From assembly GCA_916048055.1 (NCBI GenBank), contig CAJZHL010000022.1, positions 21,510 to 85,509 on the forward strand: a stretch of 64,000 bases of DNA, given 5' to 3'. Positions 2-52,557 of the stretch are shown piece after piece; positions within the stretch are counted from its first letter, which is position 1; every line of letters starts with the position of its first letter. Under the pieces are notes generated by a model. The model was not told the origin of the DNA. It made no database searches and was given only the letters and a program-made list of their open reading frames with translations. Source of the DNA: Pedinophyceae sp. YPF-701. Taxonomy: Eukaryota; Chlorophyta; Pedinophyceae. The position numbers were made by a program, and so were the translations under genes.

Positions 2-3000
2 ATCCAGATCGCGTACTCGGGGTCGTACTCGTTTGCCGTCAACGGCGGCAACGCGTCCGTGGAAGTCATGCTCGGCGGGGGCGTCGTCGCTGCAAGCCAC
101 CCGCGGGCGGGCTCCGTCAGCCCCGTGGGCTCCGATCCTCTCAACACAACCACCGGTCCTGTACAGCTCGCCATGGGGCTGCAGCACTTCAAGATCCGGC
201 TTCTGAACTGCTCTGGCGCGACCCTGGAGGTGGCGTGGCGCGTGGGCTCTGCGACGCAGTTCGTGCCCGTTCCGGACGACGTCATCTTCGGCGACGCGGC
301 CCAGCTGTCAACGTCGAGCTCTGCGGACGCTACGGCCGCCCCTGGCTTGAACATGGTGGCCAGCAACGTCTCAGCCGCCGCAGTGGGGCCGGCTTGGATG
401 GCCGCATGCCCATCCGCGCCCGACCTCCAGGGCGCGCGGTCGCTCCTCGCACAGGCGCAGTTGAACGCGACCCGGGTCTCGAACGCCGTGCTGCTACCCA
501 CCAGCGGGGGTCTCCTGGCACCACCGCCGGCACCCTACAACGACACGCCCGCGTTCCACACATTCGAGGGGCTCATCGACGTCCCCGCGGCGGGGGAAAC
601 GCGTTTCCAGATCGAGTGCGAAGGCGTGTGCGACATGCAGGTGGGGGAGTCTGTCGCAGCCCTCTCGCACGGGGGGGCCGACGGTCGGTTCGCAGGCTTC
701 TCCGTGTCGGTGAGGAACGGGACGCTCGCGCACGTCTCGGGCGTCCTTGGCGCGCTAAACGCCTCCGGATGCGCGGACAGCGCGGCGCACGGCAACGTCA
801 CCGCCTTCCTCGACGCCCTCCACATCATGTCGGAGGCAACGACGGCCGGCATCGCGGCCCGCGTCACTCCCGGCGAGTGGACGCGCGGCCACCTACCAGC
901 GGAGACCTTGTATGGAGCCAATCTGCACGTTTGGAGCGGGTTCCTGTCCGTGCCGCGGAACGCAACGTACCGCTTTGGTCTCGCGGGCAACCGCGCTGCA
1001 GACCTCAGGATCGGCGCCCGCGAGGTCGCCGCGCTGCCAGGCGGGTCCAACGTGTCCGCGAACGCCACCGCTGAGGTGCTCAGCACGTCGACCGGCCCCG
1101 TCCAGCTGCAAGCTGGGCGCGTGCAGTTCCTGGCACGGATGTACGCGTGTTCGTCGGGCGAGGCCCCCCCGCAGCTGTCGATGATGTGGCGCGACGACAG
1201 CGAAGGGTCAGGGAGCTTCAGTGAGGTTCCCGCGACGTCGCTGTCTGCGCGCAACGGATCCTGGTCGCACCCCGAGGGTGTTTCTGTCGTCGTGGGGGAG
1301 TTCGAGACACAGACCCTCAACCTGACGGTCGTCAACACCACCACCGCGGAGCAGACGGCGCTCCCCGGGCCCCTCGTCAACGGCTGTCCGGCGCAGATCG
1401 AGGTCGGCAACGCGAGCGCGGCCTCGTCGGCCATGACGACACTTGAGCAGAACGGCCAGGCGCTGATCTCAGGGGGGGCCCACGGCCTCTCAGAGCTGCC
1501 GCTGTGGCCGTGGGGGCGCGGCGGCCACCTGCTCTTCGTGTGGCGCGGCGTGCTCGACGTGCCCGCCTCGGGAAACTACACGTTTGCCGTCGATTGCGAC
1601 GGGCGGTGCGACGCGGTCGTCGCGGGCGAGCTCGTCGCAGCTGCACGCGCGGCGAACGCGACGAACGACATGGCGACCGACTCGAGCGCGTCGTCGACCG
1701 GCGCCGTTGCCCTCGCCCAGGGCACGCACACGTTCCAAGCCAGGACGTGGCGATGCAGCAAGGGCGGCCGGGGCACCACCGTGTCGTGGCGGCTTGAGGG
1801 CGCGTGGGGCCGGATGCGCCCGATCCCCTCGAGCGCCTTCGCTCCAGCGGCGCCGCTGGGCTCGCCGCCCGACGGTGCCTTCTGGGTGCCACACCCTGCC
1901 GTCTCCAACACAGCTGGATGGCCGCAAGCGAGCGCGTCGCGAACCTCCGGGGCGTCTGCGCTGGTGTGCCAGCTGTGTCAGCGGATCTCGAGCGGCGCAG
2001 CGAACGCCACGGCGTGTCCCAGCGTCACCGGGGTGTCCCAAAACACCACCGCTCGGACTCTTGCCGACATGGTCGAGGACGTCGCCAGCGCCGACGGGGA
2101 CGAGGCGCGCTTCCCCGTGCATGCGTTCCCCTCTGGCAATCTCGAGCGGGCACTCGCGCTGCCCGAGCGGCTGATCGCGGTGTCGGGGTACGTGGAGGTC
2201 CCGCGCACGGGCACGTGGCGCTTCGCGGTCAACTGCACGGGGTGGTGCGACCTCCGCGTCGGCGGCGCGCGAGCCGCCGAGTCCGACAAGAACGCCACGG
2301 CAGGGAACCTCCACGGGTCCTCGCTCGCTGCGCTCCACCTGTCTGCAGGCTTCCACGCCATCCATCTTCGACTCTTCCGCTGCCCAGGCGCCCCGGCGTC
2401 CGTCGAGGTGCTGTGGGCAGAGGGCGAGGCGCCACAAACGTTCCAGCCCCTGCCTCCTTCGAGCGTCGTTTCCGGCAAGCCGCCTCTCGTGTCGAGTAGG
2501 CCGTCGATGGCGCTCAGGGTCATCGACACGCTCCCGGCCCTCAGCAGCCCTCTCACGGGCATGATCGGAGCCAGGGGCTGTCCCAACGGTTTGAACGCCT
2601 CCGCCACTCCTGCGGCCGTGCACGACGTCCTGAGGACGATGTCGACTCTGGGTCTCGAGAGGGCATACGTTGGCGTGGACGGGATGTCTTCCGCAGCCAT
2701 CCTGGACCGCGCGACGAATGTGCTGCTCGAGTGGACAGGAGCGCTGCACGTCGTCGAAAGCGGGCCGGTCACCTTTGCCGCCCTTTGCGCGTCAGACGTC
2801 GACAGCGATTGCGCAGCAGTTGTTGAAATCGACGGCGTCCCCGTGGCCGCCGCGAGCGGGCCCGAAGAGTGGTCCTTGATCGTCCGCAACGGCAGCAGAT
2901 CGACGGTCCAAGAAATCTGGCTCGACGCTGGGCCGCACGCCATCGCGGCTCGCGCGTACGCGTGTTCGGGAGCTGCGTCTTTGCACGTGCTGTGGCGCCC

Positions 3001-6000
3001 CAGCCGAAGGGACGCGACATTCCGGCCCGTGCCGGCCTCGAGACTGTCTCTGGAGTCGGCCAACGCCCTGGGCCGCCCGATCACGCTGGAGCAAGGAGCG
3101 CACGCGCTGCGAATTCGGTCTCTAAGCTGCGGCTCGGACATGTCGCTGCGGGTGCTCTGGCAGCTGCCCGGCAGCGCAGCACCGGCCCCCGTTCCGGCGG
3201 AGAGGTTGAGTCGCGCACTGCGGAAGGACTACGGGCGCGGCGAGGGGGCCAGAGTGCAGGCGTTTAGGAGTCGCAACAGTGCTCCTGCGGGCGCCTTTGC
3301 TGCGGTTCTCTCGGACCCGTCTGCGAGCGTTGCCGACGTCGTGCGCACCTTCGACAGGACCGAGTCGAACCTGGAGAACGAGTACATACGTGCCGATCTT
3401 GACATCGCCGCTGCGACGAACGGCATCTCGCTCGACTTTGATGATGCGCAACTCGCGGGCCGTCCGCTGGCCGATGCAACCAGGTTTTACGTGTGGGACG
3501 GATACCTCGTCGTCCCAGCCAGTGGGTTCTACGAGTTCGCGCTGGACTGCCACTACAGATGCCACATGGCGGTCGCGAACCAGAACGTCGCCGTGTCTGG
3601 CGTTGCCGTGGTCAACGACCCGCTGACGGACAGCCAAGGCTCCTCGCTCGGCCCAGTCTACCTAAGCGAAGGCCCCCACGCGTTCGTGACCAGGCTGTGG
3701 CGGCCTTATTGCCCAACCACGAACGGCGATTGCCACTTCGTCGAGACTCGCCCTGCGCGAATTACAGCAACGTGGCGCAGGGCGGGGAACCGCGCCGGGT
3801 TCGGGCCGATCCCCCCTGAGGCCTTCCGGACGGCATTTTCGCCCTCGGCTGCCGCGAACCAGATCGCGATCAGCACTAACACCGCCCAGATGGCTCCCTC
3901 GACAGCAAGCTCGTGCACTGCATTTGGCGGTGTGTACAACAACGCGGCGGACTTCCTCACGGCGTTCGAAATGCTGGGGTACTTCGACCACGGCCTGGGG
4001 ACAACCATCCACCACACTAAGACGTCTACCATGAGGGTTCAGGGCCTGCGACTGTTTTCCAACGCCTACACCCACGGTCTGTTCTTCGCCATTCATGCCT
4101 TTATCGACGTCCCAGCGGCGGGCATGTGGCGGTTCGCGATGGAAGCAGGCGACAATGGCGACGTCGACGTCGGGGGGGTCATGGTGGCCAACGTGTACGG
4201 CGCTCCCAAGCGCAACACTGACCTGGCCACGGACAGCGCACAGACCTCACTTAGGGCCGTGTACTTGACCGAGGGGCTCCACTCCGTGCGCGTCCGACTG
4301 AACCGGTGCGGGCCGAACTTCTCATTCTCGTACGGCGTGCTGCGGATCGGATGGAAGCGCGAGGACGAGGACACGTTCCACGAGGTGCCGCCGTCGCGCG
4401 TGTACAACGACAGGGAGCTGATCCGGCGCAAGAAGCTTCTGCAGGTCGTCGACGAGGCCGCGCGGACGCAGTCGTGGCCCCCCGACGGCGACGGCGACGC
4501 CAGCAACGGGGCGGAGGATTTCCGTCTCGTGCTGGATGGCGGGTTGGCAGGAGCGCCGGGGATCAACGTCACGGTGACTGCGGACTCGTGTCCGTCGTGC
4601 TCGGGGTCGGTGTCGCCGTACACCACGACCTTGACGCACGCGGGGCCGACGGCGCTCGGCCAGATCGGCGACCTGCTGGCCACGGCCGACCATGACCCCG
4701 GGCACCGTGAGCTCTTCCTGCGCCCTTGGCTACTGTCTCTGGGGTCGATTGCGTCGTCGCAGACGCTTCAGGGATCCGACATGACGCTGGCTTCGGAAGT
4801 GCGGAATCAGATTCCGCAGCGAGTCGGGCTGGCGCCCACCCGCGAGGACCACGTTGGTGCGCACGTGTTGCTCGAGGCCACTGTGTCGTTGCCTGGCGGA
4901 GCCGAGCCAGTCAAGGTCCGGTCTCTGCACTCGACGGCGCGGGACGCGTGCAGCAGCATCGGGTGCTCCAACGGGGCGGCGTCGTGGGGCCAGTTCAAGC
5001 AGCACACCCTCGTCGACCTGACGTGGGGCTGGCCGTCGGACAACAGAGGCGGAGTGCCCCCCTCGAAGGCCGCGCCGCAGACGACGCGCGTCGTCGTGGA
5101 GCTCGACGCCGGCGGGTGCACCAACGTGAACGCGAGCTCCGCGACCTACTGCTCCCTGGTCAACCTCAATCACGCGGGAGACACGCGGGCGTTCGGAGGC
5201 CTCTGTCAGACGGACCGCCCGCTGTCTGCGTGGTTGTCCCTCCAGGGCCTCCCGGGCCTCCCGCCGATCGCGGGGCTGTTCCAAGACGCAGTCGCCTTTG
5301 ACTGGGCAGGCGACACCCCCTTCGACTTCACTGTCGATTGGCGGCCGCCATCGCCCGGGCGAGCAACGTCGATGTACGGACGGGAAATGGCTGCCCTGCG
5401 CTACACCGCGAGCACCTCGACGGCCCCGTTGTGTCAGCCGGAGGCGCACAACGGAATCGCAACAACGTGGTTGAGCCTGCCGTCGGGCCAGAGTGCGCAA
5501 CTCGCGCAGGATGGCGGCGCGGTCCGCGAGGCCATCGTACAGAGGGACCGAGACGGGACGCTGTGCGCGGGGTGCGCCGTGGCCGCAGTCCTGGACGCCG
5601 ACTGGGAGTCGAGTGGCACGTGGGCGCACTACTTGCGGATTCTCGTGCACGGCGCCGGGAGCACGCTTACTCCAGGCACCGCCGTGTTCGAGCAGCGCGT
5701 GTGCGAAGGCAGCAGCTCGGCCCGGAACACGTCGTCCGTCGCCCACCGGCTCGTCCTCGCGCCCGACGGCGTCCTGCAGCTGTGGAACTCTACGGCCGTG
5801 CTCTGCACCGTGGCGGAGCTCCCGAGCCACCCCGACGCGAACAAGATGTCCGCTTGGCCGATCGGCGTGTACCTCGCGCAGCGCACCTGCAGGCTCGCCG
5901 CCGGGGCAACAGTGCGCGACTTCTCTTTGGTTTACGGCAGCCGGGAGGCCGGGGTTCTATGGGACGTGCGCACGGGCGCCGGCCCGCGCCACGGCTGCGC

Positions 6001-9000
6001 GTACAAGGTCCTGGACGCGGGGCCGGATCTGGCCAGCACAGGGTGGGTCAGTTCGGCTTACTACCCCATGCGGATTGAGGGCCTGCTCGAGCTGGGGGCG
6101 CTCGGAGAGGTGGGCGGGTCTACCGGGATGACGGACGTGGTTCTGCGGTACAACCACGGCCGGCGCAACGTCGCCGTCGCGGGCGAGCTCGGGCAGGTTG
6201 CCGTGGCGTTCGAGTACAGCCTGTTGCCCGGCAACGTGACGCTGTCCGCGAGCATCCGGCTGCGCGAGGGCCTGCAGTACCTCACCGTCGGCGCGGCGAT
6301 GGTGTCGCTTGGCGACGGCGACTTCTCCGCGGCGCTGCGGCAGGTCGGCTTGCCCGGCGTGTCGTACGCAGGCCAGCTGGAAACCGTCCGACTCAACGGG
6401 CTGGTGCTGTCCGTTGGCGTCGACGAGAGCGGGCTCTTCGCGTTCAACAGGACCGCCTTCGGCCTCAGCGCGGCTTCCACGAGCGACGACGGCATCCAGT
6501 CGAACTACTCGATGCTGGTGCGGCGAACCGACCTGCCCGCGGGGCCTTCGTTCGAGATCACCGAGGCCGACCTGCGCTTGACCCAGCCGGGCTTCTGGTC
6601 CATCCGGTCGTCGGGACCGTACCCCTGCCGCTCGTCCTGGGCCCCCGCCGAAGGGCTCTTCCAGAACCTCCCCGCGGGGATCGGGGATGTCGTCATTACG
6701 CTGACCAACGGAACGGGATCGTTCGCGTGCGACGGCCGGCGCGTCACGGACTTCCTGCTCCGCGCCAGGGTCGGCACGCAGCGACTGGCCCTGGGCGAGC
6801 TCGGAGCGATCGACATCGTGGACACCAACTTCACCTACACCCACAGCGCGCGGGCGATCACGGTCGCCGGCCGGCTGGGCAACCTGGTTGCGACGGTCAA
6901 CATCGATGCCACCGCGGCTACCCCACCGGACTCCGCGGTCATCTCGTTCCGCGCCGCCGACCCCACCGTCCCAGTCGACCTGTCGTGGTTCTCGCGCAAC
7001 TTCGGGAGCACCTACGTCGTCGATCGCATTCAGGCCGTCGGCCTGCCAGGGCTCCCTCCCGGTACCAACGTGAGCCAGACGATCGTGGCGGGCCTCGGCA
7101 TCGACCTCGTCTTCCCCGCAGTGGCCAGCGTCGTGTTCCGGGGAGGGTTCAACGTGTCCGCCTCGCTCGAGGCCGACGTGGTGATGACGGCGACGGGAAC
7201 GGGCGCAGAGGCCAATATCACGGACCTGTCGCTCGATCTCCGCGGCAAGGGCCCCGGGGCCGGCCTCTCGATCTCGGTCGATACGTCTCGCGTGCCCTGC
7301 AACGGATCGCACGTCCCAGCCACGATGAACATCGGGGCCTTGGGCCCAGTGATATCGGGCGCAACGACTGCTGCGGGTGCGGTGCGCTACGTTTGCAACG
7401 GACCCTCCATCGCGGACATTGTCGGCACCTTTGGCCCTGCTGGGACGCTGCTTCTCGAAACGGGGCTGGCCGGCAACGTGTCGGTTGCGACGACGAACGC
7501 GACGTACAGGCATGCGGCGGGCGTGATCAGCTTCGCTGGAGCCACGGGCATCATGTCTGCTGGAGCAACGATCAGCACGAATGGCACGGGAGGGGCGTTT
7601 TCCTTTGCACGGGCGCCGACAACCACGCTGCAGCAGGTTTTCACCGACCTTGGCAGTCGCATGGAGCAGTCGATACGTCAGGTCGGCCTGCCGGGGCTCG
7701 AGGTGAACACAGCGCGTGGGGCGTCCATTGGCGACCTGTCGATGCGCGACATCCTCCTGGCGTTCGCGACGGGATCTCCGGAGCTTCGGATATCGTGTAC
7801 GGGCGTGACACCGCTTGTTGCCGTCGACGTTTCGCTCGATCTACGTGCGGACGTGCTGTCCAGTGGCAGCACTGTGCCGAGAAGCCTGACGGTGTCGTTC
7901 CACAAGATCAACGCCTTCAGCTTCACCGTCGACAGCGGTGACATCGACCCATGCTCTGGATCGCCACTGCCAGCATCTGGAATGGTCGAGGCCGCGACGG
8001 GCTTCGCTGCTGCGACGACGGCGAGCGGGCAGACCATGCCTCCGCATGCGCTCGCAGCGCGCGGGTTCGCATCGCTCGAGTGCAGCGGGGGTGTCATCGA
8101 GAATGTGGTCGTGCGTCTCAACAGGACCGCTACCGGGGACACGTTCGGGGCGGTCATCGCCAACGACATGCCGAACATGCCGACGAATCATACGCTGAGC
8201 GATGCGGCGCTGGTGTACGAGCACTGGCGGAACAGGCTGTCGTTCGAGGGCGTGCACGCCACGTTCGACGTGGAGCTCGTGATCTTCAACGACTTCCCCA
8301 CGAAGGGCTTCTTGACCTTCACGCCGCCTCCCGGGTGGTCGGGGACGCTGGCGGAGGCTGCGGCAGTCTTCGGGCGGCCCCTGGAAACCGCGGTGGTCAC
8401 CCTCGGCGTGCCCGGCCTCGTGGCTGCGGGCAGCACGGCCCAGGCAGCTGCGCTGTCCCTCAACGGCAGCACGGTCATCGAACTGGAGACATACGAGTTG
8501 GCAGCCAACAGACTCGAGAACCGCCTGCGGCTGTTTGGGTGCGGGCACCTGGGCGACGTCGCCTCCACGGTGTGCTTCGAGGAGATCTACTTCTGGGACG
8601 ACTTCGGCACGGGCTTCAGCGGCGGCGAGTTCATCGCGACGGACGAGGTGCTCTGGCGACCAAACCCGCAGGCTGCCAACCTGGAGATCACGCTACGTCC
8701 GCCACGAGGGACGTCGATGGCCTTCTCGGACGACCCGTGCAAGGCACGCGACGTGGACGTCTTGCCCATCGAGGCCTCGACGAGGCTCACAGCATTGCCC
8801 CCTGGCTTGCCGGATGTGTCGGCAACGGGCTCTGCGTCGGTTCTGTGCTACAAGCACGCCCAGCAGGACGTCAGGCTCAGCCTGGCGACGGACACCTTCG
8901 CCCCGCTCGTCGGAGGGCTCGGTTCCTTCGGCCCGGTCGCGAGCCCTGTCCTTGCCGTGTCGAGTGCGCAGCGGGCCGTCAGCCTGCAAGGCCGTGTGGG

Positions 9001-12000
9001 GCTCCTCAACGTGTCGGCAGCGTTCTCTCTGGGCAGCGCGGCGGGCGTGGAGTACGGTCTGTCGCCGGCGTCTCCGGGCCCTCTCACCCTGGCGGACATC
9101 ATCACGGCGATCAACAGCACTGGTGTCACGTCCTTCTTCGACGCTGTGGGGCTCCCAGGCCTCCCGCAAAATGCCAGCTCGTCGTCGACGGTCATCTCGG
9201 CGCCGTCGATCACGCTCGGCGACATGACGGTGCGCCTGCAGGGGTCTTTTGCGTTCCCAGACAGACCTGCGTTGGCCGTTCTTGACCTGGCCGGCGTCTC
9301 CGCTGGGGCCAGCCACACCATCTCCAACCTCGTCCTCGACATCTCTCAGCCTGATCTCCTGTCGCTGAACGCGTCAGTCTCCGTGCCGTGCCAGACGGGC
9401 AGCAAGACGGTGCCAGCCTCGGTTGCGACGGTCACCGGCCCTCCCAACCCCCTCCGCACGGTCGTGAACGGCTCGATCCTCGCGACCTTTGTCTGTGCGG
9501 GGCAGGCGATCAGCGATCTTCGCTTCGCGCACGCCACCGGCGTCGTCGACATCGCCACGGACGCCGTCGGCCCAGCACAGGTCACGTCCTCAACGGTCAG
9601 CTTCAGCAACGCCGCTGGTTCGGTGATAGTCTCTGGCAGCATGGCGTCCCTGGCGGCGACACTGGTCCTCGACGCCCAGGATGTCAGCGTCGGGACGATG
9701 CGGGCGCACAGCGTCGGCAGCGTGCCACTGGCACCGCTGTTTGACGCGTTCCCTGGATTCAGCTCCGTGCTCACCTTCGTCGGACTTCCAGGCCTGCCTT
9801 CCGACACGGACTTGAGAGCCATCGCCGCAGACGGAATGGACGTCCGCCTTTCGACCTCCGGCTTCGAGATCGACGTGATCACGGGGTATGTCGATGCACA
9901 CGGAGGGGTGTATTCGCTGGACGCCTCGCTCCTGACGGTTCCGGCGCCGCGCTTCGTTCGACTCGCACTGCACATCTCCCAGCCGAGCGCGCTGGACATC
10001 AGGATCTCATCGGAAAGGCCGTGCGCTGGTTCGGCTGCGTTCCAGGACTACCTGGGCGCGACAGTCAATGTCTCGTCGTTCTCGTTCACCGCGCCTGCCC
10101 TGGTGACGGCCGTTAACGGCGCAGCCTCTGGGCGGATCCAGTGCTCGAGGCGAGACCGCGCGCAGGGCCTGGAGTTCACGGCGCGGCCTGGCGAGGCGTC
10201 GCTGGTTGCGACGGGCCTGCTTGGCAACGTCGCCGTCGACGCGCCTGAGCTCGCGTACGACCACGTCGCACGCACGCTGGACATCAGCGGAGACGCGAAC
10301 GGCATAGCGTTCGAGGCGAACATCTCGCTGAAGACCCCGCTGGCGTCGCTCCCGACCGGAGCTGTGCTGTCCGCTCAACGGACGACTCTGCAGGCGCTCT
10401 CGGACGCCTTCTCCGGCGGTACTCGGACGCTCCTGGAAGCGATTTCCATCGTCGGCTTGCCGGGAGTATCCCTGGGTCAAGACCCTGGCTCCCTCGTCCT
10501 GCACGGCGTGACCCTGCGGCCTGATGCCGCCGGGTTCGTCCTGGATGCCACCACCGTCCTCCCGGGGCCTCTGAACGTCACGTTCTCCACGAGCGTCGTC
10601 GCCGCCGGCAGCGTCCTGAGCGTCGCGGCCGTCGACGTGAGGATGGTGCAGGCCGGCGTCCTAGCGCTGCAGTTCGGAGGCAACGCCCCGTGCACAAGCG
10701 GCCCCCTCCAGGCCACAGGCACCGTCTTCCAGCCCCCGATGGTGCCGAGCCGCCAAGACGTGACCTTCTCCGGCACAGTCACGGTCTCGTGCGTCGCACA
10801 GCTCCTCGGCGACCTGAGCCTCGACGCCACGACCGACACGCTCAGCGTGTCGACAGTGCTGGCCGACAGCGTCGTGCTCTTCGACGCGCAGCGCCTGACG
10901 TACGTGCACAGCCAGCGCGCCTTCGGATTCAGCGGCACCAAGCAAGGACTCGACATCACCGTCTCGTCCTTCCTGCTCGACAGGGCGAACCTCTTGACCA
11001 AGGCAACATGGTCCCAGGCCGCCAACCTGACGATCTCCGAGCTGTCGACGCGGCTGGGCGCTGACGTCGACGCTGCTATTGGGCAGGGCGGTCTGCCGCC
11101 GCAACTCCCCGCTGGCGCCGGAACTGCGACCGCCGGGAGCGTGATCCTGTTCCCCGGCCTGCTTGTCGAAGGACAGCACCGGGCCGGGAGCCCCGAAGGG
11201 TCGTTCTTGCGACTCGACGCCGACGGCGTCGCCGGGGCGCTCTCCGTCGTGCTGCGCCGCGACCCTGCCGGGACGTGGGAGCAGACGGTGCTGTCGTTCC
11301 GTTACGAAACCCCCGGGGTCGTGTTGCTCATCTCTCCGCTCGGCGACGCTTCGGAGGTGTCCCTCGCGTTCCTCTCGTCGCCGTGCAGTGCTCCGGAGCG
11401 CGTCTTTGCGGCGAACGCGAGTGTCAGCCCCGTGCCCCCCGGCATCCCGGCAGTGGGCGGCGCGGGCACTGTGGAGATCGTGTGCGTCGGCCCCGGCATC
11501 GATTCGTTCCGCGCCGCCTTCAGCGTCCTCCCCGGGCTGTCGTTCAACGCGGCGGGCGTCGGGGTCGTCGGCCCGCTGCCCGCCGCGAACGCCACCATCG
11601 TCTCTGATGGGCCTGAGGTGTCGGTCACTGCGGTGGTACCCCCCCTCCGTCTCGAGGTCTCGTACGACCCGTCCGTCGCCCTCGAGGGCGGTCCGGCGCT
11701 GGTCTTCTCCCCGGCAGACACAGAGGGCGCCGTGACGCTGGGCAGCATGCTCAGCGCACTTCCCGACGCACTGGCAACGCCGCTGACGACGGTCGGCCTG
11801 CCCGGCACCTCGCCCTCGGAGTCCGCGGCCACCCGCCTGCGACGGCTGCGTATTCGAACCGTGCGGCAGCTGATCGTCGTGACGACGGACATGGAGCTCG
11901 GGGCGAACCTGACGGGCACGCTCAACATGTCGGTGCTGACCAACGCGACGGAACCCAGCATCAGCGACCTCACGCTGCGGCTTGTGCAGCCGAACGTCAT

Positions 12001-15000
12001 GGACGTGAGCATCTCTGGAACCCCCTGCGGATCCACGGTGACGGTGGCTCCGTCCATCGACCTTACGCCCACCAACGGCACCGCGCGACACTCCCTGACG
12101 GCTGTCGCGGCCGTCGCGGAGCTGCCGGGGACTTCCCTGCTAGGGCGGGCTCTTGATGGCCGTGGCTACCTTCACCTGAACGGGACGGCGCGTGCCGTCT
12201 GCCGCGGAGCCGCCGTGGTCGATTTGGAGGCCAGCTTCGATATCGGGAACGTGACGATCGACGCCCGCTTCGCTGGCGCTCTCGCGGCACAGAATGCGCT
12301 CGTGACGTACGCACATGCGCGGCGCGAGATCGCCGTCACCGGCCGCCGAGGTTCCTTGCTCCTCACCGCCGCTGCGCACGTGGCGCAGGCCCAGCAGGCA
12401 GAGGTGTCGCTGTCCACTCTCAGGAGCCCGGAAAGCCTGTTCTGGATCCTCAACGACGCAGACAGCGCACCTCTGTCTGCCTCCCTCCTGCTTGGCCTCC
12501 CGGGCGTCCGCGTAGAGCTGCCCTCGGACGAGATTTTGCTCGACAGTCTCCGCGTTGTCATGGGCGATGCGGGCTTCAACGCGACGGCTGAGGCGCTCGT
12601 TGACAACTGCGTCGCTCTCGCGGTCAACTCGACGGTCGTGGCGGTCAACGCGTCGGCCTACGAGCTCGCAGAAGCGCAGGTCACGGTCGGAGATCGCACG
12701 ACTGCCGCAGTCGTCTTTGCCGGGGTTCGGCCTTGCGCGACGGGCAACATGCCGGCATCTGCGCGTGTAGACGCGCTCTCCTGGGCGACCCAGACGGTGG
12801 AGCTCCCCGGAACGGCGTCGGTCACGTGCTCCGCGAGCGGCGCCGTGCGCGGCATCTCTGCGGCTTTCTCGCCCTTGCAGTCGCTCGTCGTCAACACAAC
12901 CATGTTCGGATTCGTCACCGTGGAGTCCGCCGCCGGATCGTACGACCACGACTCGGCCCGCCTCACGTTCGACGGGACGCTCAACTCCTCCTCCTTCCCA
13001 GCTGCAGCCGTCGTCGCACTCGAGGACCCTGAGGACCTCCTCCTCTCCGTCACGCCGCCTTCCTCGGCGCTACCTCGCACCCTCGGAGGCCTAGCAGCTG
13101 ACATCGACCTGGCCGTGGCGGCGTCGGTGCGGTCCGCCGGGATTCCAGGGTTCTTGGAGGGTGATGCGCGCCTGAACGCGTCGCAGGTGATGGTGTCCGG
13201 GGAGGTCGTCGTGCAGGCGTGGCATCGCGCGTACGAGCTGCGTCTCGCTGGGACCGTCCAGACCCCCGAGACAGGACCCACGAAGGTCGACGTGACGTAC
13301 CGCGGCCCCGCGCAGGACGGCACGTTTTCCGTTGCGCGGATGGTCACGACGCTCGACCAGCCGCGACTGCGGCTCAAGTTCGTCGGACCAGGCGTGCCGT
13401 GCAGGCCGCTGGATCCGCCTCTTCCGCCCGCCGCGCGGCGCGGCCTGAGGGACGTGTCCAGCGAAGCGCGCCACACCGACACTGGAGGTTTCCTCGTCGA
13501 GGCCGAGGTTCACGGCCTGCCTGGCGGGCTGCTGAACCTGACTGGCTCGGGCGCTGTCGACTTCGTTTGCGACGCGAGCACGCGGAGCGTCGTGGACTAC
13601 AACTTCACCGTGGACGCTGGCGACATTGCATGGCAGACGACACTGCAGGGCACCGTCGTTTCGATCGAGGACGCCTCCGTGTCGTTCCTCAGCTCTTCGG
13701 GCGTCGTCGAGGTCCTCGGCCGCGCTCCTCTCGCGAACGAGGCCACCGCAACGTTCAACCTCACCCAGGATGCCGCTGTGCCGCTGCTTGTTCGCCGGCT
13801 GCCGCAATTCTTCCCGGCTGCGCTCGGACAGGCGCTCGACGACATACGCCTGCCGAACGTGGGGGACGCAGCGCTGCGGGTCGGCGTTCCGGGAGCCGCG
13901 AACCGCGAGGAGGTCGCGTCCCTCGAGGCGCACAGGCTCGAGGTGCTCTTTGGAGCGGCGGGCGTTGTCAGCATCTTGTCCAACACGACCGCACAGGGGT
14001 CCGACGAGGCGTTCCTGGTCGCGGAGGTCGATCTGTCGCCAGCAAACGGCTCCGCGCTGTCGAACGACTCCGCGGTGACCGTCCCCTCGGCCAGGATTGC
14101 AGTCGAGCTGCCAGGCAAACTCGTGCTGTCTGCCGGGGCCGAGCGCCCGTGCGAAGTTCCGAGCCCCACCCGCAGCGGCCAGGCGTCCGCGGAGATCACG
14201 GGGCTCCTCGGCCTGTCCAGCCCGCTCGCGATGCGTGGCTCCGGCACGATCAAGTGCACCGGGTCCAGACTGACGGGCTTCGCAGCGGAGGTCGCGTCCG
14301 ACGCCGCAGCACGTGTCGTCGCCGGATCGCTAGGCCCGCTGCAACTTCCGGGGCTCTCGCTGTCGTACAGCCTTGCGCAAAACGCCTTTGCGTTCAACAG
14401 CACGATCGTCTCAAGCTACGCCCTCCAGTATGGCGCAACCGTCCGCGGCAACGACACATCCGTGACGCGCTCCGTCGTCTCCACCAACAGGCCCGGCGTG
14501 CGTCTGGCCCAGGTGTCGAGCGACCTCGGCTCGGCGGTCTTCGACGCGGCCTGGCAGGCGCTGGGCGTGGACGCGCTGGTGCCGTGGCCCGACAGGCTGC
14601 CGGCGGACGTGGAGTTCGACCGCCTGTCGTTCGCGACTCAGTCGCCAGACAGCCTCACAGCGCACGCGTCGGCCCCGCTCCCGGGCGCGAACGCCACCGT
14701 GGATTTCGACGTGCGCTTGAACCGCACCGCCGGGGCCAATGGCAGCAGTTTCCAAGTCAACGGATTGCGGCTGCGCTCCGTGCAGTCCGAGCGCGTCGCC
14801 GTGACTGTCGAGGGATCGTGCGGCGCGACGGAGCCGCACACGGCGCGCCTCGTGGTGCTCGGAGACCCTTCGCTGGGAGGCATGCTGGACATGCGCGGGA
14901 ACGCCACAGTGCTGTGCACCGGCGGGGAAGGAGTGCGTGAAGTCTCCGCAGCCTTCGCCCGATCCAACCTGACGGTGTCGGCGGGGCTGTCCGGGCCGCT

Positions 15001-18000
15001 CACCCTGCGAGCTGCGCAGTTCGCGTACCAGCACACCGCGCTCACTCTGTCAGTGCAGGGCGGCTTGGCTGTCATGGACGCGCGCGTGGAGGCGCGTCTC
15101 GGCGCCGGCTTCCCCGCGGACATCGCGCTGGGCCTCGCGCAGGCATCGAACACCTCAACGGTGCAGACAATCCTGCAAAGCTTGGACATCGAGCGCCTCA
15201 GCACTGCTGTGGCTGCCCTGGGCCTGCCAGGGCTGGCGAGCACGCCGTCGGGGGCACTCGACACCGTTCCCGCCCGACTGAACGCTACGTTCACGGCAAG
15301 CGGCACCGTCGACATCGGCGCGAGCGCCGCACTGCCGGAGACGGACGTCGTTGTTTCCCTCCTTGTCAACGCCGTGGCGACCGCGGACCCCGCAGGCTTC
15401 ACAGCGAGCGCCGTGTCGATCGACGTCGTCGCAGGCGGCCGCTTCAGTGCGCGGGCGCACGCTGCGTTCCCGTGCGCGAACGGCACCACCGGGTCGGGGA
15501 GCGCCACGCTGGGGCCCGTGCCGTCCCTTGTTGCGCCGATCCGCGCGCGCGGCACGTCACGGTTTGTGTGCTCTGGACCGGCGATCGTCGACTTCGTCGT
15601 CGAGTCCGCCCCGGCCCCCACGGGCCCGGCACTCCTCGACACGAAAGTGCTCGGGAACCTCACGATGCAGAATGCCACGCTCTCGTACGCACATGCAAGG
15701 CGCGTCGCCACGGTCGTCGGGCTGTCGGACGACCTCCCCGCCGAGCTCTCGATTCCAGTCGTTAGCCGCAACGACTCCGCGCTCGAGATCGGGTTGCCCG
15801 CGTCCCAGAGCGCCATCACGCTGGGGGAGTTCTCGACCCGCGTCGGCTCGGACGGCGTGCTTGCGGCGGTCGTCGCTCTGGGCATTCCGGGTCAGTTCGA
15901 GCCGGACGCGCCCCGCGCCACCGTTGCCGCCATTTCTGTCGCCGGGCTGCGGGTGACGATGGCGGACCTGCCGTCCAACCTGTTGAGGTTCGCTGGATCA
16001 ACGGCAGCAGCTCCTTTCGACATCACGGCGCGCCTGGCGTGCGGCTCCGAGGTCGGACTGGCCCCAGGCTCGTGCGCATTTGTTCTTGCGGCGCTCGTCT
16101 TCCAGTACGAGGCGCCTGGGATTGCGCTCACCGCGCGCGGCCTGTCGCCGTGTACGTCTGGCGACCCCAACGAGACGTCGACGATCATCTCCGCCACGCT
16201 CAACGGCATGCCGCCCGGCTTGCCGCGGACCGCGACGGACGGAATCGTGCAGTTCATCTGCGGCGAGGCCCCCGGCGAGGTCGTGGACTTCACGGCAGTC
16301 CTGCGGCCCCAAGACCTGTCTGTCGACACAGGCGCCGGGGGCGTCATCGGGCCCCTCGCTGCGCCCACGCTCACGTTCGAGGGCGCGACGAACGCGATCT
16401 CGTTGCGCGGCTCGCTTGGCCGCCTGGTCGTCACGGCCGAGGCGGCGTCGGGTTCAACAGCAATTCCAGACTTTGTACTTTCTGTCGCTCCGGACGCACC
16501 GTCACCGCTATCGATTGCGCAGATCGCGGCCGGGCTTGGCTTGTCGTCCGTCAACGCGACGCTCCTCGACATGGGGCTCCCAGCCATCGCGTCCAGCCCC
16601 GCGCAAGCGCTGGCGACGCCGCTGCGCAACGCCGTGCTGCGGTTCACGCAAACCACCGTCGAGGTTGGCGGCGAGGTCACGCTGGTTGAGCCCGAGGGCC
16701 TGGTTGTCTCGCTGCGCGTGACGATCGACTTGCGCGTCGGCGGTGCTGCCGCACTCAGTCGACTGGAGCTGCGGCTACAAGTGCAGGGCCGCGGAACCGT
16801 CATCGTGGCGGGTCCTCAGCCGTGCGCCCAGGAGCTCGACGTGACGCTACGTCTCACGCAGCTGCCGGTCGGACTCGGGGACGTCACGGAGTCGGGCACG
16901 GCTTCGGTGCGCTGCGCGCCGTCGGGTGCGGTGCAGTCGATCACAATCACCTCCGCACTGCCGAGCCGGACCATCGACATGGCTCTCGCGGGGGAGCTGG
17001 CTCTGCCGCCCGCGGAACTGTCGCTGCAGTTCGTGAACGGGGCCTGGAGCCAGCTCACGATCGGTGCTGACGTCCCCGGCCCCCTCCGCGCCAACGTCTT
17101 GCTCGACCTGGCCGCGCCTGGAGCTATCACCGCATCCACACCGACGGTCGAGCTCGGCCCTCTCCCGTCTGGCCCAACCCTCACGATGGGCTCCCTGTTC
17201 GCGTCCATCGGCTCGGCGTTTGAAACGGCGCTGCGTGCCGGAGGCGTGCCGGGCGTGCCGGACGCCGACCTGGCAGCGATCTCTGTCAGCAACTTGCTGA
17301 TCGACGTCGACCCGGAGCTGAACAGCTTCACGTTCGCCGCAACGCTCGCGATCGGGCTCGACATATCCCTGGAGGTCGAGATCGAGTTGTGCGGGGTCGC
17401 TGCTCAAGCAACGACGGCGCGACGCGTCATGGCCGCCGCAGCGGCGGGTGCGCGGCAGGCGCGGCGCGTGCACGCAGAAAGCGCGGCGTTGTTCGCCATG
17501 CCGTGGTACAAGAGGCCTGTGGTGGCGCCTGCGGAGTTGCTGGCGCAGGAGGGCCTTGGGGCGATGCGGTCGGTCGACGCGGACATGCTGGCCCTGGTGC
17601 CTTCGGAGGGACAGCGGCCTTCGTCGCAGGAGACGCGCTCGCGGCTCCTCGCGGCGCAGGGCGCGGAGGTGGTGGTGGTGACGCGCCTGTACGTCAACTT
17701 CGTGGGAGGTCAATTCATCCAGCTGTCGTTCTCCGCTGGGACGGTGTGCGGCGGGACTGGACGGTTCCCCGTGCAGGGCTCCGTCGACCTCCCCTTCCTG
17801 GGCGTGCAGCAGTCCCTGTCGGGCGAGGTTCAAGTCGACTGCAGCGGACAGACTGTCTCGGACTTTGCGGCCGCCCTGAACATCCCCTCGGCGTCCTTCG
17901 ACGCCGGCACCTTCAACTTCGACCTGCCGTCGCTGACGCTCACGTTCCGCGCCAGCACGCGGGCCTTCAGGGCGTCTGCGCAGCTGCCTGCGTCGGTCGT

Positions 18001-21000
18001 CGCGCAGCTGAGTTTCCGGCTGGGCGACACGGCGGCTCCCAACGTCGTCGCAAGTGTCGACAGCAGGGTCGGCACGATCAGCCTGGGCGATCTGCTCCCC
18101 GTTCTCGGACCCGGAGTGACCGGGGTGCTGGGCTCTCTCGGCGTCCCTGGCTTCGGAACAGCGCTGAACAACTTCCTCGTCGAGAGGCCTGCGTTCCTGG
18201 TCGCGCCCGGCGAGTTCGGCCTCAACGCAGTCGTCCTGGTCGGCGTCGTGCGGGTCCGCGCCTTCTACGAGGCGACGCTTGACTTGCAAACCCCTGGAGC
18301 GACGTACGTCATGACGGAGTTCGTGAGCAGCATCTCGTCGCCGTACATCGACACCACGATCCAGGGCGCGGACCCTTGCGCGGGCGGCGGTGCCTCGCTG
18401 ACGGTCAAGGTACGCGGCCTTGAACGAAGACGCACAAGCGCCACGTTCTCCTGTATGTATGTTTCCCGGTCATGATGTGCCATGTCCCTGCACACGACGT
18501 GCCCCGATCGTTTCCGCATCGTGCAGGTGCTGTTCAAGACATTGCCCTTCGGCCTTGGAACCATCAACCTCGAGGGCGGCATTCAGATGATCTGCGAGGG
18601 CAGCGCTGCCGTGGCATACGAGGTGTCGATGGACCTGGAAGCAAACGGCATATCGTTCCGGCCGTTCATGATGGTCGACGTCGACTTCGCCGACACCCGT
18701 CTCGGGTATCTGTCGTCGGACAACGTCGTCAAGGCCGGCGGCACCGTCGGCGTGCTGCGCGGGGCCCTGGCCATCCCGCTGGACGACCCCGCCAGCTCCT
18801 ACATCATCCTCGAGACGCCGCACGCAGTGGCGCTGGGCGCGACGCTCGCGGGGGTCAGCCCGACGTTCGAGCAGGCCATGCAGGAGATCGGCATCCCGGG
18901 CGTGGAGGGGAGCCCGGACGGCATCATCGTGCAGGGACTGTCGCTGGAGATAAGCCCGACCGTCTTCGCCCTCGACACGGCGTTCGAGATCGCGGGCACG
19001 TCGCTCGAGGTCGTCCTCGAGGCCAGGAAGGTCGAGAGCTCGTGGACCATGGACATGGTCGCGCTCAACGGGCGCTCGGCGTGCAGCGGCAATGCATGCC
19101 TGATCGCCTTCGACCTGCAGGCTGTGCGTCCCTGCGGCGCCGACACGAGCACCACCGTCACGTTGCAGCTCTCGGATATGCCCGCGGGCCTGCCGGATCT
19201 TGCAGCGTCCGGCACAGCGGAGCTCACGTGCGCCGGGATCCAGATTCGCGACTGGACGCTGCTGGTCTCCGCCCAGCTGCAGGCCGACTTCACCGTGCTC
19301 TCCGACCCGCTCATCGCCATCCGGAACCCCTCGGTGTCGATGAGGTACGCTTCGGGTCCGCGGTCCGTCGCCCTGACGATTCCGTTCTCCGACCTCTTTG
19401 ACGTGCGGCTGACGTACGAGCTCGGCCTCGCGTCCTCGGCTCGGCTCGCGCTCGTACTCAACGCCGATGCGTCGCTCCTGAACAGCCTCTCGAGCCTCGG
19501 GAGCGTCGTCGACACGACCCTGGGGGGTGTGTTTGCAAGTCCCCCTGTGCCCCCCTTCTTGGTCGGGATCGCTCGCTCCATCCTGGACGCCAGCATGCTG
19601 CGCGGATCGATAGCGCAGCTATCCATCTCGAGCGCCGGGCAGCTCACGGTGTCCGTGCAAGGTACCCTGCGCGTCTTCGGCGTCAACGTCGTGACCACGG
19701 TCGCCGCCACCAGGCCTAAGGGTGGCAGCTGGATCGGCTTCGCCGGGCTGGACGCCGCCTCTTTGGTCGACGCGCTGCCAGGCCCCGGGGCAATCATCGG
19801 GAGCGCGATCCGTTTCCTCGGGCTCGCTGAGGGCTTCATAGGCCTGAGTACGGGGCAAGGCGACTTCGAGGTGCCCCCCTCCGACCCGACACTCGGAGGC
19901 GATGCCCTGCAGATCAGTCTGCCGACGTCAGCCAAGTTCCTGACGTTGACGCCGGGACTGACCCTGCCGTTCGTCAGGGACCTGCAGAGCTCTCTTGGGC
20001 CTGTGCTAGCGTCGCGATTCACGGACGACCTGCAGCTCTCGGTCGACTTCCCGAGCGCCGCATCGTGGCGCGCGACCATGGTGCTGAACGCCAAGTTCTA
20101 CCTCATACCGACGTTCATGGTAGAGCGCATCAAGCTCGGGCTGGAACTCGGGGGCGGCGGCGTGGCGGTGTCGTTCGCGTTGGACTTCTCCACCAACCTC
20201 GGGCTCTTCCAGCAGGAGATTCAATTCACGGGGAAGATCGAGTACGCCCCTGCGCCGTCGAACTCCCTCGGCGGGTCCTTGATCATGGTCTCTCAAGATG
20301 GTCTGCGTTTCACCCCGTCCTTCACCCTCTTCTCCCTGGCGATGGGCGCGTCGTTCCAGATCCCGTCCCTCGCACCGACGTCGATCGAGATGGCCGGCGC
20401 GGGGAGGTATGGGCAGTCGAGCGCAGAGGGCGCGCTGCTGGTGGACTTCAACCGTCCGCAGGACACAGCCTTCTCGTTGCGCCTCAACAACGCCCGCGTC
20501 GACTTCATCGTGCAGGCGATGCTGGACGACCTCCTGTACGCCCTGGGCTCCCCGCCCGTGACGCTCCCGCCGATCGTCACGTTCCCGCTCTCGTTTATAC
20601 AAGTGGGCTCTCTCGACATGTCCTTCAATCCGCGCCCCAACGACATCGAGTACGCCGGTGTGCGGATTCCGAGCGGCGTCTTCTTCGAGGCCTTCGACGT
20701 GGCCTACTTCTTCATGCGCGCCCAGAGGATCCTCTTCCGACTCAGCGAAAGCACAGTCCAGGGGGAGTTCGTGGCGGCGCCGGCGCGCGTCGGCAGCCTT
20801 CTGTCCATCTCGCGCTCGTCAGCGGACAGGTCGAACGGGCCGTTCTGCAGCTTCTTCGCCGTGACCAAGTCCAGCCCGCGCTTCGAACTCGAGTGCCAAG
20901 GGTTCCTGTCCGTCCTGGGCATCTCGCTCGAGGCGCGTATTCGCGCCACGCACGCATCGATATCTTTCGTCGGGCGCTTCAACTTCTTGAACGCGATTTC

Positions 21001-23902
21001 CGTGGAGCTCGGCCTCGACGGCAGCCTCGAGCGGGTCAACCGAGGCTCTCCAGACCTGGGCGTGACCTTTGCGTTGTCGTCGACGAACGGGCTGCTGGCG
21101 GACCTCGTCAGAGTCGTGCAGCGGGAGGTCGTGCGGCTCGTTCGCTTCATCGGCGACTCGCTCAAGAAAGAGGCGCGCTGGCTGGCAGACAAGGCGATCG
21201 AGGTGGCCCGGGAAGGCGTCCGCCAGGCAAAGGCTGGTCTCGAGAGAGCGAGGCAGGCGGCACAGCAGATCATCGCCGAAGCGCGGAAGGCGTTGGAGGC
21301 CATGGATCGTGCAAGGCGGGAAGCAGAGGCCAGGTACAACCGTGCCAGGCGGGAGTGCTCGTGGAAGAAGCCATGGAAGTGCGCCGAGGCGGGCGTCATG
21401 AAGGCCGGAGCCGTAATGATGCAGGGCTTTAGCTTCCTCGGAGGAATGATGGTCCGGATGGCGGAGGTCACGTCCAACTTAATCATCGACGCAGCCAAGT
21501 GGGCGCTGACGCAGGCCGAGAGACTGGTGGTTGCCGTCCTGGAGAAGGCCGCCGGGTTCATGGAGGGCGTGATCGAGCTGATCTTCGACGTGCTTGCACG
21601 GATCGCCGAGAACCTCCCAGTCGCGGAGCTGATGCGCGTGCTCAACATCGCCGAGCTGCGCGCCACGGGGCGCATTGGCAACGGCGCAGTGTCTCTGGGC
21701 TTCTTCTGCCGCGCGGAGTTCTTCTTCACAGGCATGCGGGCGTTCGGGTTCAACGCCCGCCTCGACGTCGTCGACATGGTGGTGCAGCTCGTCTCAATGA
21801 TGAAGAGCAAGATTCAGAACATGATGAAGAGTCTGTTCGACAAAATCATCCCCGACTTCGGCGTGCGGCGGTCACGCGTGCTCCTGGGAGACGTGGAACC
21901 CGCGACGCCCCGGAGCGATCCCGAGAGGTTCATCTGGGCCGTTTACCGGGTCGTTGCGGCCGACAAGAGCATGGACGAGCTCTCGGAGATGTACGACGAA
22001 TACGTCAAGGGGCCGGCCCAGAAGGGGGGCTTCCTCGCGCACGCGGCACCGGTCATGGCGCAGCGGCGGCGGGCGCAGTCGTCGAACTTGGTGGCGTTCC
22101 TTGCGGCCGAGGGCGTCAACATCACGGAGCCAACGGAGGAGGACAAGAGGCTGAGCGCCTTCGTCAACGACTTCGACGTCGACGCGTTCGAGCTGCCCCC
22201 TGATGCGACGCTGCCGACGGGCGAGAAGCTCTCCAAGGACTTCAATCCGGACAACTACACCGCCGCGGTGTTCGACTTCAGCGTGAGTGCACCCCCCTGC
22301 ACCTCTCCTTGCTTCCGGTCGCTTGCGGAAGCGCTGCAGCCTGGTCTCCGCTTGCCATCAGTACTGGACTCGCGACGCTCTTTCTTGCCGTGCCATTTCC
22401 GCCGTCTTGCTGGACCTGCTGGTTACACTTTCCACAACGTTGTGTTTCCCGAGCCCTCCTTCGCTCACAACCTCACCGCGCTCCTCGGTCCTCCGCCCTG
22501 GCCGCAGAACATCTTGGACAGCGCAGAGCAGGAGGAGCGCGAGGCCTCAAAGGCCTTCCAGCCCGCCGGAAGCAGCGTGTACCCCCCGCCCCGCGAGTAC
22601 CAGGAGCTGCAGGAGGCTACGTTCGAGTCGGTCGCAACCGTGTTCTCGTTCCCGGTCGGCATTTCCAACACGACGTCTGGAAACGCCACGGCGCCGGCAG
22701 CGACGTCCGCGCCGGCGAGCAACGCGAGCTGCGTGTCGCCTGCGGGCAACTACAGCGGCGACGGCGTGCACGCCGTGAGCGCGTTCGCCGCCGAGCGCCT
22801 GGCTGCAGCGGGTCTCCGGTACTCGCCCGCGGAGGGCCGGGTGTTCAAGATCGACGACCCTATCTTCGCGAATGCTTCGGCAAACAGCAGCAGTGCTGCC
22901 AACGGCTCGGCTGGCTGCGTGCCGGCGGCGATCGACCTCGAGGCCGTCGAGCGGGAGCTGGAGCACCACCTCAAGCACGAGGTGGCGCTGCACGCGTTCC
23001 AGAACGGCCTGCTCTCCGCACGGTCATTCACCATCACCGTTGCCAACAACAACGCAGCCGGCAGGCGCCGGCTGGCGCAGACGAGCTCCAGCGCGCGGCA
23101 GGTGGCCATCACCTTGCAGAACGTGGTCACAGCCGACGTCACGTCAATCAAGGGCTTCCTCCTCGTAGGGTCGTGGGCGGACTCCTTTTCTCAGGCGCTG
23201 GCAAACACGACCGTCGCGTCAGGCGGACAGCCCGTGTCTTTGGGCTCCGCTGCGCTCGTCGCTGCGACCGCGTCCACGACGTCGAGTGCGGTCTGCACGT
23301 CGCTCACGACGTCGGCTCTAGCAGCAACTACGCCCGCGGCAACAACACCGACAACGACAGCAGCAGCGACCACCTCGCAGCCGGCCGCGAGTGCGCCGAG
23401 CGCCACGGTCCCGAGTGCGCCAGCTGGGGACGCACCGGCTGGGGACGCGAACCAGTCACCTGCGCCCACTCCTGCGGCGACCGCCGACGGGGGAGGCGGC
23501 GGGCTCGTCACTCCTTTCGCCGTGGTCGCCGGCGTCCTTGGCGCCGCCATCATCGGCCTGCTGGTCGGTGTCGTGCTCATGCACGTGCGCTCTGTGCGGG
23601 CGCGCGAGGCGCAGTCCCGGACGTCGGCCGACGGCAGCTCGCAAGTGCTGGGCGGGCTGCCGGCACGGCCGGCGAGCGCGCGGGCTGCGCGCCGAGTGGC
23701 ACCAGCAGACGCACCGTCGCGGGGTCTCCGGAACGTCCTGTTTGGTGCGTGGGTATCCTGGGTTGGCGGGACGCGTCAGCATCCAGAGGTCAGTGCAAGG
23801 CGCGCGCGCGTCTCTACACCGGGCGTGAGCGACGACGGCTCCCACGGCCTTGATGCCGTGATTCCCGCGCATCCTGACCAGAGAACCAGCTTAGGATGCT
23901 AA
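2..23902 (+). CDS. Giant type I membrane (adhesin-like) protein, 5' end outside window
   Basis: Exons 2-18409 and 18527-23902 join in phase 0 across a 117-bp GTACGC...CAG intron, giving at least 7,927 residues. The frame is open to base 2, so the N-terminus lies upstream. In order: about eight PA14-like modules (to roughly 4440) with the recurring pattern VPASGxYxFxxxCxxxCDxxVG and a closing Cys/WR segment; a spacer region (4440-6100); about 19 repeats of ~225 residues (6100-19000), each with a GLPG-like turn and a Cys pair; a beta-rich region; an amphipathic helical module (21110-21860); a Thr/Ala/Pro stalk (about 23290-23500); a transmembrane helix (about 23505-23588); and a short basic cytoplasmic tail. 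N-glycosylation sequons are abundant. The likely role is cell-surface adhesion or matrix; this is inference. An in-frame stretch from 22283 and the C-terminus after 23742 may contain further introns. Confidence 0.88.
4..4440 (+). repeat. Array of PA14-like modules in the giant protein
   Basis: Seven complete units and one cut by the window start are recognisable. Core strands lie near nucleotides 2-110, 545-690, 920-1060, 1530-1680, 2170-2330, 2720-2870, 3490-3640 and 4080-4240. Each has a strand ending in DVPASG or a variant, an aromatic-rich strand, a CxxxC-like pair in most copies, and a tail reading TGPVxLxxGxHxFxxRxxxCSG followed by WR and a Pro-rich closing loop. PA14 domains are known carbohydrate-binding modules of adhesins and glycosidases. 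The unit near 4080 lacks the cysteine pair. Assignment to PA14 is by pattern, not by a profile search. Confidence 0.6.
17391..17690 (+). other. Ala/Arg-rich helical insertion within one GLPG repeat
   Basis: About 95 residues rich in Ala, Arg, Gln and Glu interrupt an otherwise beta-type repeat between the turns near 17245 and 18142, and account for the single long interval in the array. The segment starts after a Cys and contains dibasic pairs and an MPWYKRP stretch. It could be an exposed linker or a processing site; nothing more can be said from sequence. Confidence 0.5.
18410..18526 (+). other. Spliceosomal intron of the giant gene
   Basis: The intron starts AAG|GTACGC and ends CATCGTGCAG|GTG. 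The reading frame stops inside it at 18475 and reopens in a different frame. Both exons are in phase 0, and the protein pattern continues across the junction without a gap. It is the only clear intron in almost 24 kb of coding sequence. Confidence 0.85.
21110..21860 (+). other. Amphipathic helical membrane-proximal module of the giant protein
   Basis: About 250 residues without prolines in long stretches, rich in Ala, Arg, Glu and Lys, and consistent with a long coiled coil. A CSWKKPWKC motif follows, then Met- and Val-rich helices. The composition is unlike the beta-rich repeats before it. It may act as an oligomerisation or membrane-binding element; this is inference. Confidence 0.55.
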
Positions 23903-52277: not shown

Positions 52278-52557
52278 TTTTGCACCCGAGCAACCCACCA
52301 CAGCGCAACCCTGCCTGAATCCCAGGCCCGCGGTCCGTCGCTGTTTTTGCCACCCAATGTATGCACCACAATGGCCCCCCGGGCGACCCTTTCGCCCCCC
52401 CAACAAACAACACACCTTTTTGCACCCGAGAAACCCACCATAGCACGACCCGGCCTGGATCCCAGACCCGCGGCCCGTCGCTGTTTTTGTCGCCCAATGT
52501 ATGCACCACAACGGCCCCCCGGCCGACCCTTTCGTCCCGCGCAGGGCTCACCTTCCA
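52278..52557. repeat. 140-bp tandem duplication
   Basis: Two diverged copies of a 140-bp unit start at 52278 and 52418. Both contain TTTGCACCCGAG, CCCGCGG and CCGTCGCTGTTTTTG, followed by CCCAATGTATGCACCACAA and GGCCCCCCGG. I estimate about 85% identity by eye. The unit has no coding sense and is probably a decayed repeat family member duplicated in place. Confidence 0.85.

Follow-up and report, generated by a model that had tools for sequence, protein, structure and literature searches.

What does a green alga without a cell wall make from a single reading frame thousands of codons long? The window considered here, a stretch of 64,000 nt, raises this question. It covers C22:21510-85509, where C22 is contig CAJZHL010000022.1 of the 27.9-Mb, 32-contig assembly of Pedinophyceae sp. 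YPF-701, an alga now named Akinorimonas japonica and wall-less by transmission electron microscopy (PMC12574857), and a giant gene crosses its left edge and ends at position 23902 of the forward strand. We judge it probable, at roughly 0.6, that the product of this gene is a type I surface glycoprotein of some 9,500 residues that crosses the membrane once, that the gene is one of at least seven sharing a module, and that the protein contributes to a mucin-like glycocalyx coat of the kind that FMG1 forms on Chlamydomonas.

The argument begins with the frame itself. Frame 2 of the window runs on the forward strand in two open stretches: one extends from the left edge as far as 18475, and the other begins at 18476 and ends at 23902 with the stop codon 23900-23902. 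The sole internal in-frame stop, a TGA at 18473-18475, lies inside a GT-AG intron of 117 nt and phase 0 at 18410-18526. A GenBank protein of the same alga (P0003, 5,411 aa, annotated as an unnamed protein product) has the identical junction. From C22:17914 onward this frame stays open through 7,356 codons; after the intron, another 1,791 lead to the stop. The large exon occupies positions 2-18409 (6136 codons in the window) and extends left, outside the window, to C22:17932; the second exon in the window spans 18527-22282 and is followed by a probable second intron at 22283-22507 (225 nt, GTGAGT...CAG, stop-free), which is missing from P0003. Scores against five paralogues, computed with the corresponding 75 residues kept and removed, favour neither version. 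Coding within the window amounts to 7,927 codons, a figure that falls to 7,852 should the second intron be real, and GC content at third codon positions (GC3) is coding-like, at 0.75-0.90, in each block along the chain. A preliminary description of the sequence had claimed more than 7,900 residues nearly free of introns, which agrees with this model; of the gene extent that it gave, the end at 23902 stands and the start does not. We model the initiating ATG at C22:15734, 5.8 kb left of the window, in a signal-peptide-like first exon whose hydrophobic core, ICVSTIFVALAL (2.7), precedes AAPCAAQ. Four 5' exons with GT-AG borders, hand-picked to keep the frame and giving 434 residues, would join the large exon at C22:17932; one donor is atypical (GTCAAG), yet it is the sole in-phase donor in the range scanned. 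With these junctions, which we infer, the modelled product has 9,479 or 9,554 residues (about 9,480-9,550), depending on the second intron.

A repeat array fills much of this frame. Between 6338 and 19522 on the forward strand lie 19 units of about 225 aa (residues 3312-7667), their borders set by an iterated hidden Markov model (HMM). The units measure 210-248 aa (mean 225), share 16-25% identity with the first, and in most cases carry G-[LVI]-P-G close to the start; they follow in tandem save for 87 residues (6944-7030) of weaker similarity, and the 117-nt intron falls within the unit starting at residue 7243. Under leave-one-out scoring the units reach 29.5-95.5 bits, compared with at most 7.5 for reversed units and at most 8.0 across 50 shuffles per unit. 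The 5' exons score 6.1 bits for similarity to the repeat, and we do not claim a repeat there. All 18 aligned units, a set that excludes the unit interrupted by the intron, keep the same two cysteines; these stand 30-58 residues apart (30-36 in 14 of the 18) and may well form one disulphide per unit. N-glycosylation sequons number 59 in the array against 20.1 ± 3.9 in shuffles, which would fit an exported glycoprotein. Structure prediction, which the preliminary description had proposed as a check, gives for the one unit modelled, about 225 aa long, 13 strands and two helices, at a predicted local distance difference test score (pLDDT) of 77. Pfam returns nothing above cut-off in the array, the C-terminal module, or the linker, transmembrane helix and tail, and NCBIfam nothing above cut-off in the array or second frame. 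Both the long unnamed repeat array and the signs of an exported glycoprotein noticed earlier (sequons, paired cysteines, and now a signal-peptide-like exon) are borne out.

Ahead of the array, PA14-like modules extend through positions 2-4390 of the forward strand, again as previously proposed: PF07691 reaches 75.4 bits against a cut-off of 24, with three stretches individually significant. Our own iterated HMM, trained on these same modules, yields 12 rows at 34.8-113.5 bits (nine near whole, two N-terminal parts and one C-terminal half), corresponding to about 11 modules. Three rows lie left of the window; the others are at 2-274 (beginning left of the window), 554-682 (N-terminal part), 920-1231, 1532-1828, 2168-2455, 2720-3034, 3038-3196 (C-terminal half), 3482-3814 and 4082-4390, all on the forward strand. 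A profile of seven modules, compared with PDB sequences, finds a sulfatase at an expectation value (E) of 2.7e-4, protective antigen chains at 0.005 and a 'PA14 domain-containing protein' at 0.011. Sequons are in excess here too (25 versus 6.4 ± 2.4 in shuffles), and not in residues 1-600 (3 versus 1.6) or 2260-3225 (5 versus 4.8). Between the modules and the full repeat units, the forward-strand region 4391-6337 is blank in Pfam and has a partial unit at its end (6080-6334, 5.6 bits). PA14 domains that bind sugar hold calcium through two consecutive aspartates, D-cis-D (PMC6650083). Such a pair is found in none of the 11 loops, judged over 17 residues from the conserved Phe; the twelfth row, the C-terminal half, lacks that loop. 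At the Asp-Asp position, six of the 11 loops (window 554-3814 and C22 left of it) instead carry C-x3-C, five of them as C-x3-C-D, possibly a disulphide-locked variant.

Behind the array comes a C-terminal, membrane-proximal module at 19523-22201 of the forward strand (residues about 7668-8560; borders approximate), composed of beta-rich and helical parts. The helical module of the preliminary description does exist, not as a stand-alone module but as one piece of this larger, conserved one. Its signature, C-x-W-x-x-P-x-x-C, at 21356-21382 on the forward strand, is the sole match in the window's six frames (127,996 positions). The module holds one sequon, and its beta part none against 2.1 in shuffles. 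Further on, a linker of 87 residues rich in Ala, Ser, Thr and Pro, disordered to judge by its composition (23261-23521, forward strand), leads directly into a single predicted transmembrane helix at 23522-23578 with a mean hydropathy of 2.8 (residue 9001). No other hydrophobic segment is comparably strong, the other two above 1.8 (2.21 and 1.89) lying within repeat units, in accordance with the one membrane helix reported before. The forward strand then encodes a basic tail, presumably cytoplasmic, which together with the stop codon spans 23579-23902 (residues 9010-9126, pI 11.7). Compared with the PDB, the module profile A7 retrieves designed helical bundles (best E 1.1e-5) and, more weakly, alpha-synuclein (0.13 at best), matches that we attribute to helical composition rather than homology. 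The weak alpha-synuclein likeness falls on the helices after C-x-W-x-x-P-x-x-C (about 21400-21660), which may be amphipathic and lie on the membrane or may reflect composition alone.

This module ties the gene to others. Searched with two pieces of it, the genome shows copies at six further loci: C3:748855-750888 (in a frame of 14,835 codons), C12:1059312-1060793 (1,728 codons), C6:109460-111232 (1,771 codons), C14:331917-334148 (6,534 codons), C14:380722-383319 (4,085 codons) and C28:2574704-2575201 (3,379 codons). Queries made with the C3 and C14 copies recover the same set and a weaker eighth candidate at C28:348-350 kb (E 4e-5 and 1.2e-7). Two further weak matches, C31:329510-329803 (E 0.128, one internal stop) and C32:971524-971715 (E 0.023), are left out of the family. 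C-x-W-x-x-P-x-x-C is present in all seven loci read, that is, the window and the six, in an alignment that is loose beyond the helical part. What had been described as a single unusual chain is one of a family.

The outer parts of these proteins were scanned with a repeat HMM trained on C22 units alone. In the C3 frame, a 10-kb stretch of which is stop-free, the HMM matches 12 stretches, nine of them at E < 1e-3 and seven at 20 bits or more, the best scoring 65.5 against at most 4.3 over 200 shuffles. An 11,850-codon frame on C12 also has repeats (E 1.7e-34; best stretch 51.7 bits); about 30 kb separate it from the C12 module copy, which shares its strand, so the two likely belong to one gene. 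Two other giants of the genome, taken as controls, return E = 1, and there is no repeat match around the module at either C14 copy, C28, C6 or C12 in the stretches scanned (for C6, the module end only). The C3 protein closes much as the window protein does, with an S/T/P-rich stretch, one transmembrane segment (2.81) and a short tail, although about 150 residues separate its S/T/P-rich stretch from the segment. Thrombospondin type 1 matches follow the module in both C14 copies, at 61 bits in L033 (C14:380893-384819) and at 19.4 bits, below the cut-off of 23.8, in L031 (C14:330417-334061). With a module common to all seven, repeats at C3 and C12, and thrombospondin type 1 matches at C14, the family shares its membrane-proximal part, and the outer parts are unlike in at least some members. 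We suggest, tentatively, that these genes, at least seven in number, might constitute a lineage-specific coat system in which one conserved module carries exchanged outer parts (the 225-aa repeat, whose fold is undescribed, PA14 tandems, thrombospondin type 1) and which stands in for a wall.

The closest known parallel is the Chlamydomonas coat. FMG1B strings together 34 Ig-like units that are about 22% identical, each some 110 aa long and holding one disulphide; it is N-glycosylated, and a disordered linker of about 100 aa precedes its multi-helix membrane domain (PMC12021028). FMG1 forms the outer ciliary coat, and its depletion raises adhesion (PMC12021028). Like FMG1A and FMG1B of Chlamydomonas reinhardtii (PDB 9GOS), the window protein is a giant, membrane-anchored green-algal chain, probably N-glycosylated to judge from its sequons; it too is made of domains in tandem, about 20% identical and each with a conserved cysteine pair, and it too has a linker before the membrane, 87 residues here versus about 100 aa in FMG1. 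The two part company in repeat length (about 225 aa versus 110 aa), in overall length (the window protein having about 2.5 times the length of 34 x 110 residues), and in the PA14 and C-x-W-x-x-P-x-x-C modules, which are unmentioned for FMG1 in sections of PMC12021028. The authors of the FMG1 study propose a wider, variable mucin-like family in green algae, in which repeat folds vary and a disordered region is conserved (PMC12021028). We do not claim that the window protein belongs to the FMG1 family, because hydropathy predicts one C-terminal segment in it and no multi-helix membrane domain. In our reading, the protein would most likely be secreted by means of its signal peptide and anchored by its one helix, so that a long chain of disulphide-pinned, N-glycosylated beta domains would extend from the plasma or flagellar membrane with PA14 modules at its tip. 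Packed with its paralogues, it would form a mucin-like glycocalyx, a coat to shield the naked cell and to modulate its contacts in the way that FMG1 does on the cilium of Chlamydomonas.

Several observations weigh against this picture. The predicted unit of 13 strands and two helices does not resemble the 110-aa Ig-like unit of FMG1, and one predicted transmembrane helix stands against several. The repeat profile, compared with PDB sequences, produced no FMG1 row at E up to 10 (the presence of 9GOS in that set is unconfirmed), and its best match, an antibody chain at E 0.032, is unconvincing. For the C3 array HMMER applies a large bias correction, 196.6 bits, although shuffled sequences fail to give such matches. 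The protein is predicted from genome sequence, and the joined product is our reading of one uninterrupted frame, for the GenBank model starts inside the array, at residue 3641.

That start invites the view that two genes lie here, a PA14 gene and a separate array gene. P0003 does begin at an internal Met, and a protein search that scored 7,983 candidates turned up none for the PA14 half. Against this stand the single stop-free frame and a GC3 that stays even across the proposed start, which cuts the repeat unit at residues 3543-3757 in two; given its position in the middle of a unit, we read the start as a prediction error and consider two genes highly improbable. The public P0003 model is without the PA14 half. 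If instead the chain is one, it could serve as an adhesin, its PA14 tip binding glycans on prey, on other cells or in the biofilm of the sand while its array acts only as a stalk, like yeast flocculins or bacterial RTX adhesins. The distal position of about 11 PA14-like modules and the origin of the alga in marine sand speak for this, and PA14-bearing adhesins such as the yeast EpA family and the bacterial RTX adhesin MhLap (PMC6650083) resemble the window protein in being long surface proteins with a distal PA14 above cut-off. They differ from it in that the window protein has about 11 modules in tandem and, in 11 of 11 loops, no Asp pair, with C-x3-C in six. It is this absence of the pair found in sugar-binding PA14 that weakens the adhesin reading, even if some other kind of glycan site may exist, and FMG1, the best comparable algal protein, limits adhesion (PMC12021028). 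We therefore regard an adhesin as unlikely, and of the 'adhesin or matrix protein' proposed in the preliminary description we retain the membrane-anchored giant. A mating agglutinin, in which paralogues with differing outer parts would confer specificity on gamete or flagellar recognition, is suggested by the several loci with unlike outer parts; we think it improbable, as at least seven loci in a genome would be many for one recognition pair. The reading that we prefer remains that of a mucin-like coat protein.

Fibrocystin/PKHD1-type proteins, defined by TIG, G8 and parallel beta-helix domains, are likewise large PA14-containing surface proteins, but Pfam, run over three pieces of the window protein with E up to 1 allowed, finds no TIG, G8 or beta-helix. 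Elsewhere in the genome, C3:944684-960628 (L013-L015) holds a 5,315-codon frame with TIG, PA14, G8, a CEMIP beta-helix and a hydrophobic segment near its end, by its domain content a predicted fibrocystin/PKHD1-like protein. None of the profiles searched (Pfam, NCBIfam, PDB sequences) places the whole window chain in a described family, in keeping with the preliminary description, which did not recognise the combination. Protein searches outside the genome returned the alga's own protein alone, a result limited by length and shared 5-mers that does not imply absence; no homologue was confirmed in viral contigs, searched with P0002 and the module alignment, or in prokaryote genomes, searched with two repeat units. 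Among the matches listed from the open-licence literature, no title or abstract opening describes these proteins, and the set of large proteins sharing the membrane-near module is apparently undescribed. In size, the 14,835-codon frame is no record, because green-algal proteins reach 22,244 aa in a plant proteome survey, the largest carrying polyketide synthase domains; the giants named there include several polyketide synthases and an 18,533-aa protein of Chromochloris of unknown function (PMC6681478).

Downstream of the gene, where 32 stretches of 38-830 codons were chosen by codon use, the neighbours look ordinary: Pfam matched seven of 10 stretches, to a P450, a starch-binding domain, a kinase, a pyridoxal phosphate-dependent (PLP) decarboxylase, TYW2, a class II tRNA synthetase and PAF-AH. 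At 52278-52538, within the window's lowest-GC 2-kb block, a 140-bp unit is repeated in tandem (1.9 copies with 89% matches). Thrombospondin type 3 repeats were seen in two giant frames of the genome, C26:4734-27674 (minus strand, 7,647 codons) and C3:572-38088 (up to 8,126 codons), in a scan that scored 150 of 377 candidates; both are at contig beginnings and perhaps near chromosome ends.

How green flagellates without a wall assemble their surface has, to our knowledge, been little described in terms of proteins. FMG1 has been proposed as one of a hidden class of mucin-like giants that escaped detection since their repeats share almost no sequence (PMC12021028). The window protein would be an independent case from another green-algal class, with a repeat that profiles can detect, and the conserved module may provide a handle with which to search for the class. 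Should this reading hold, we would expect membrane-proximal modules to be kept among such proteins while their outer parts change.
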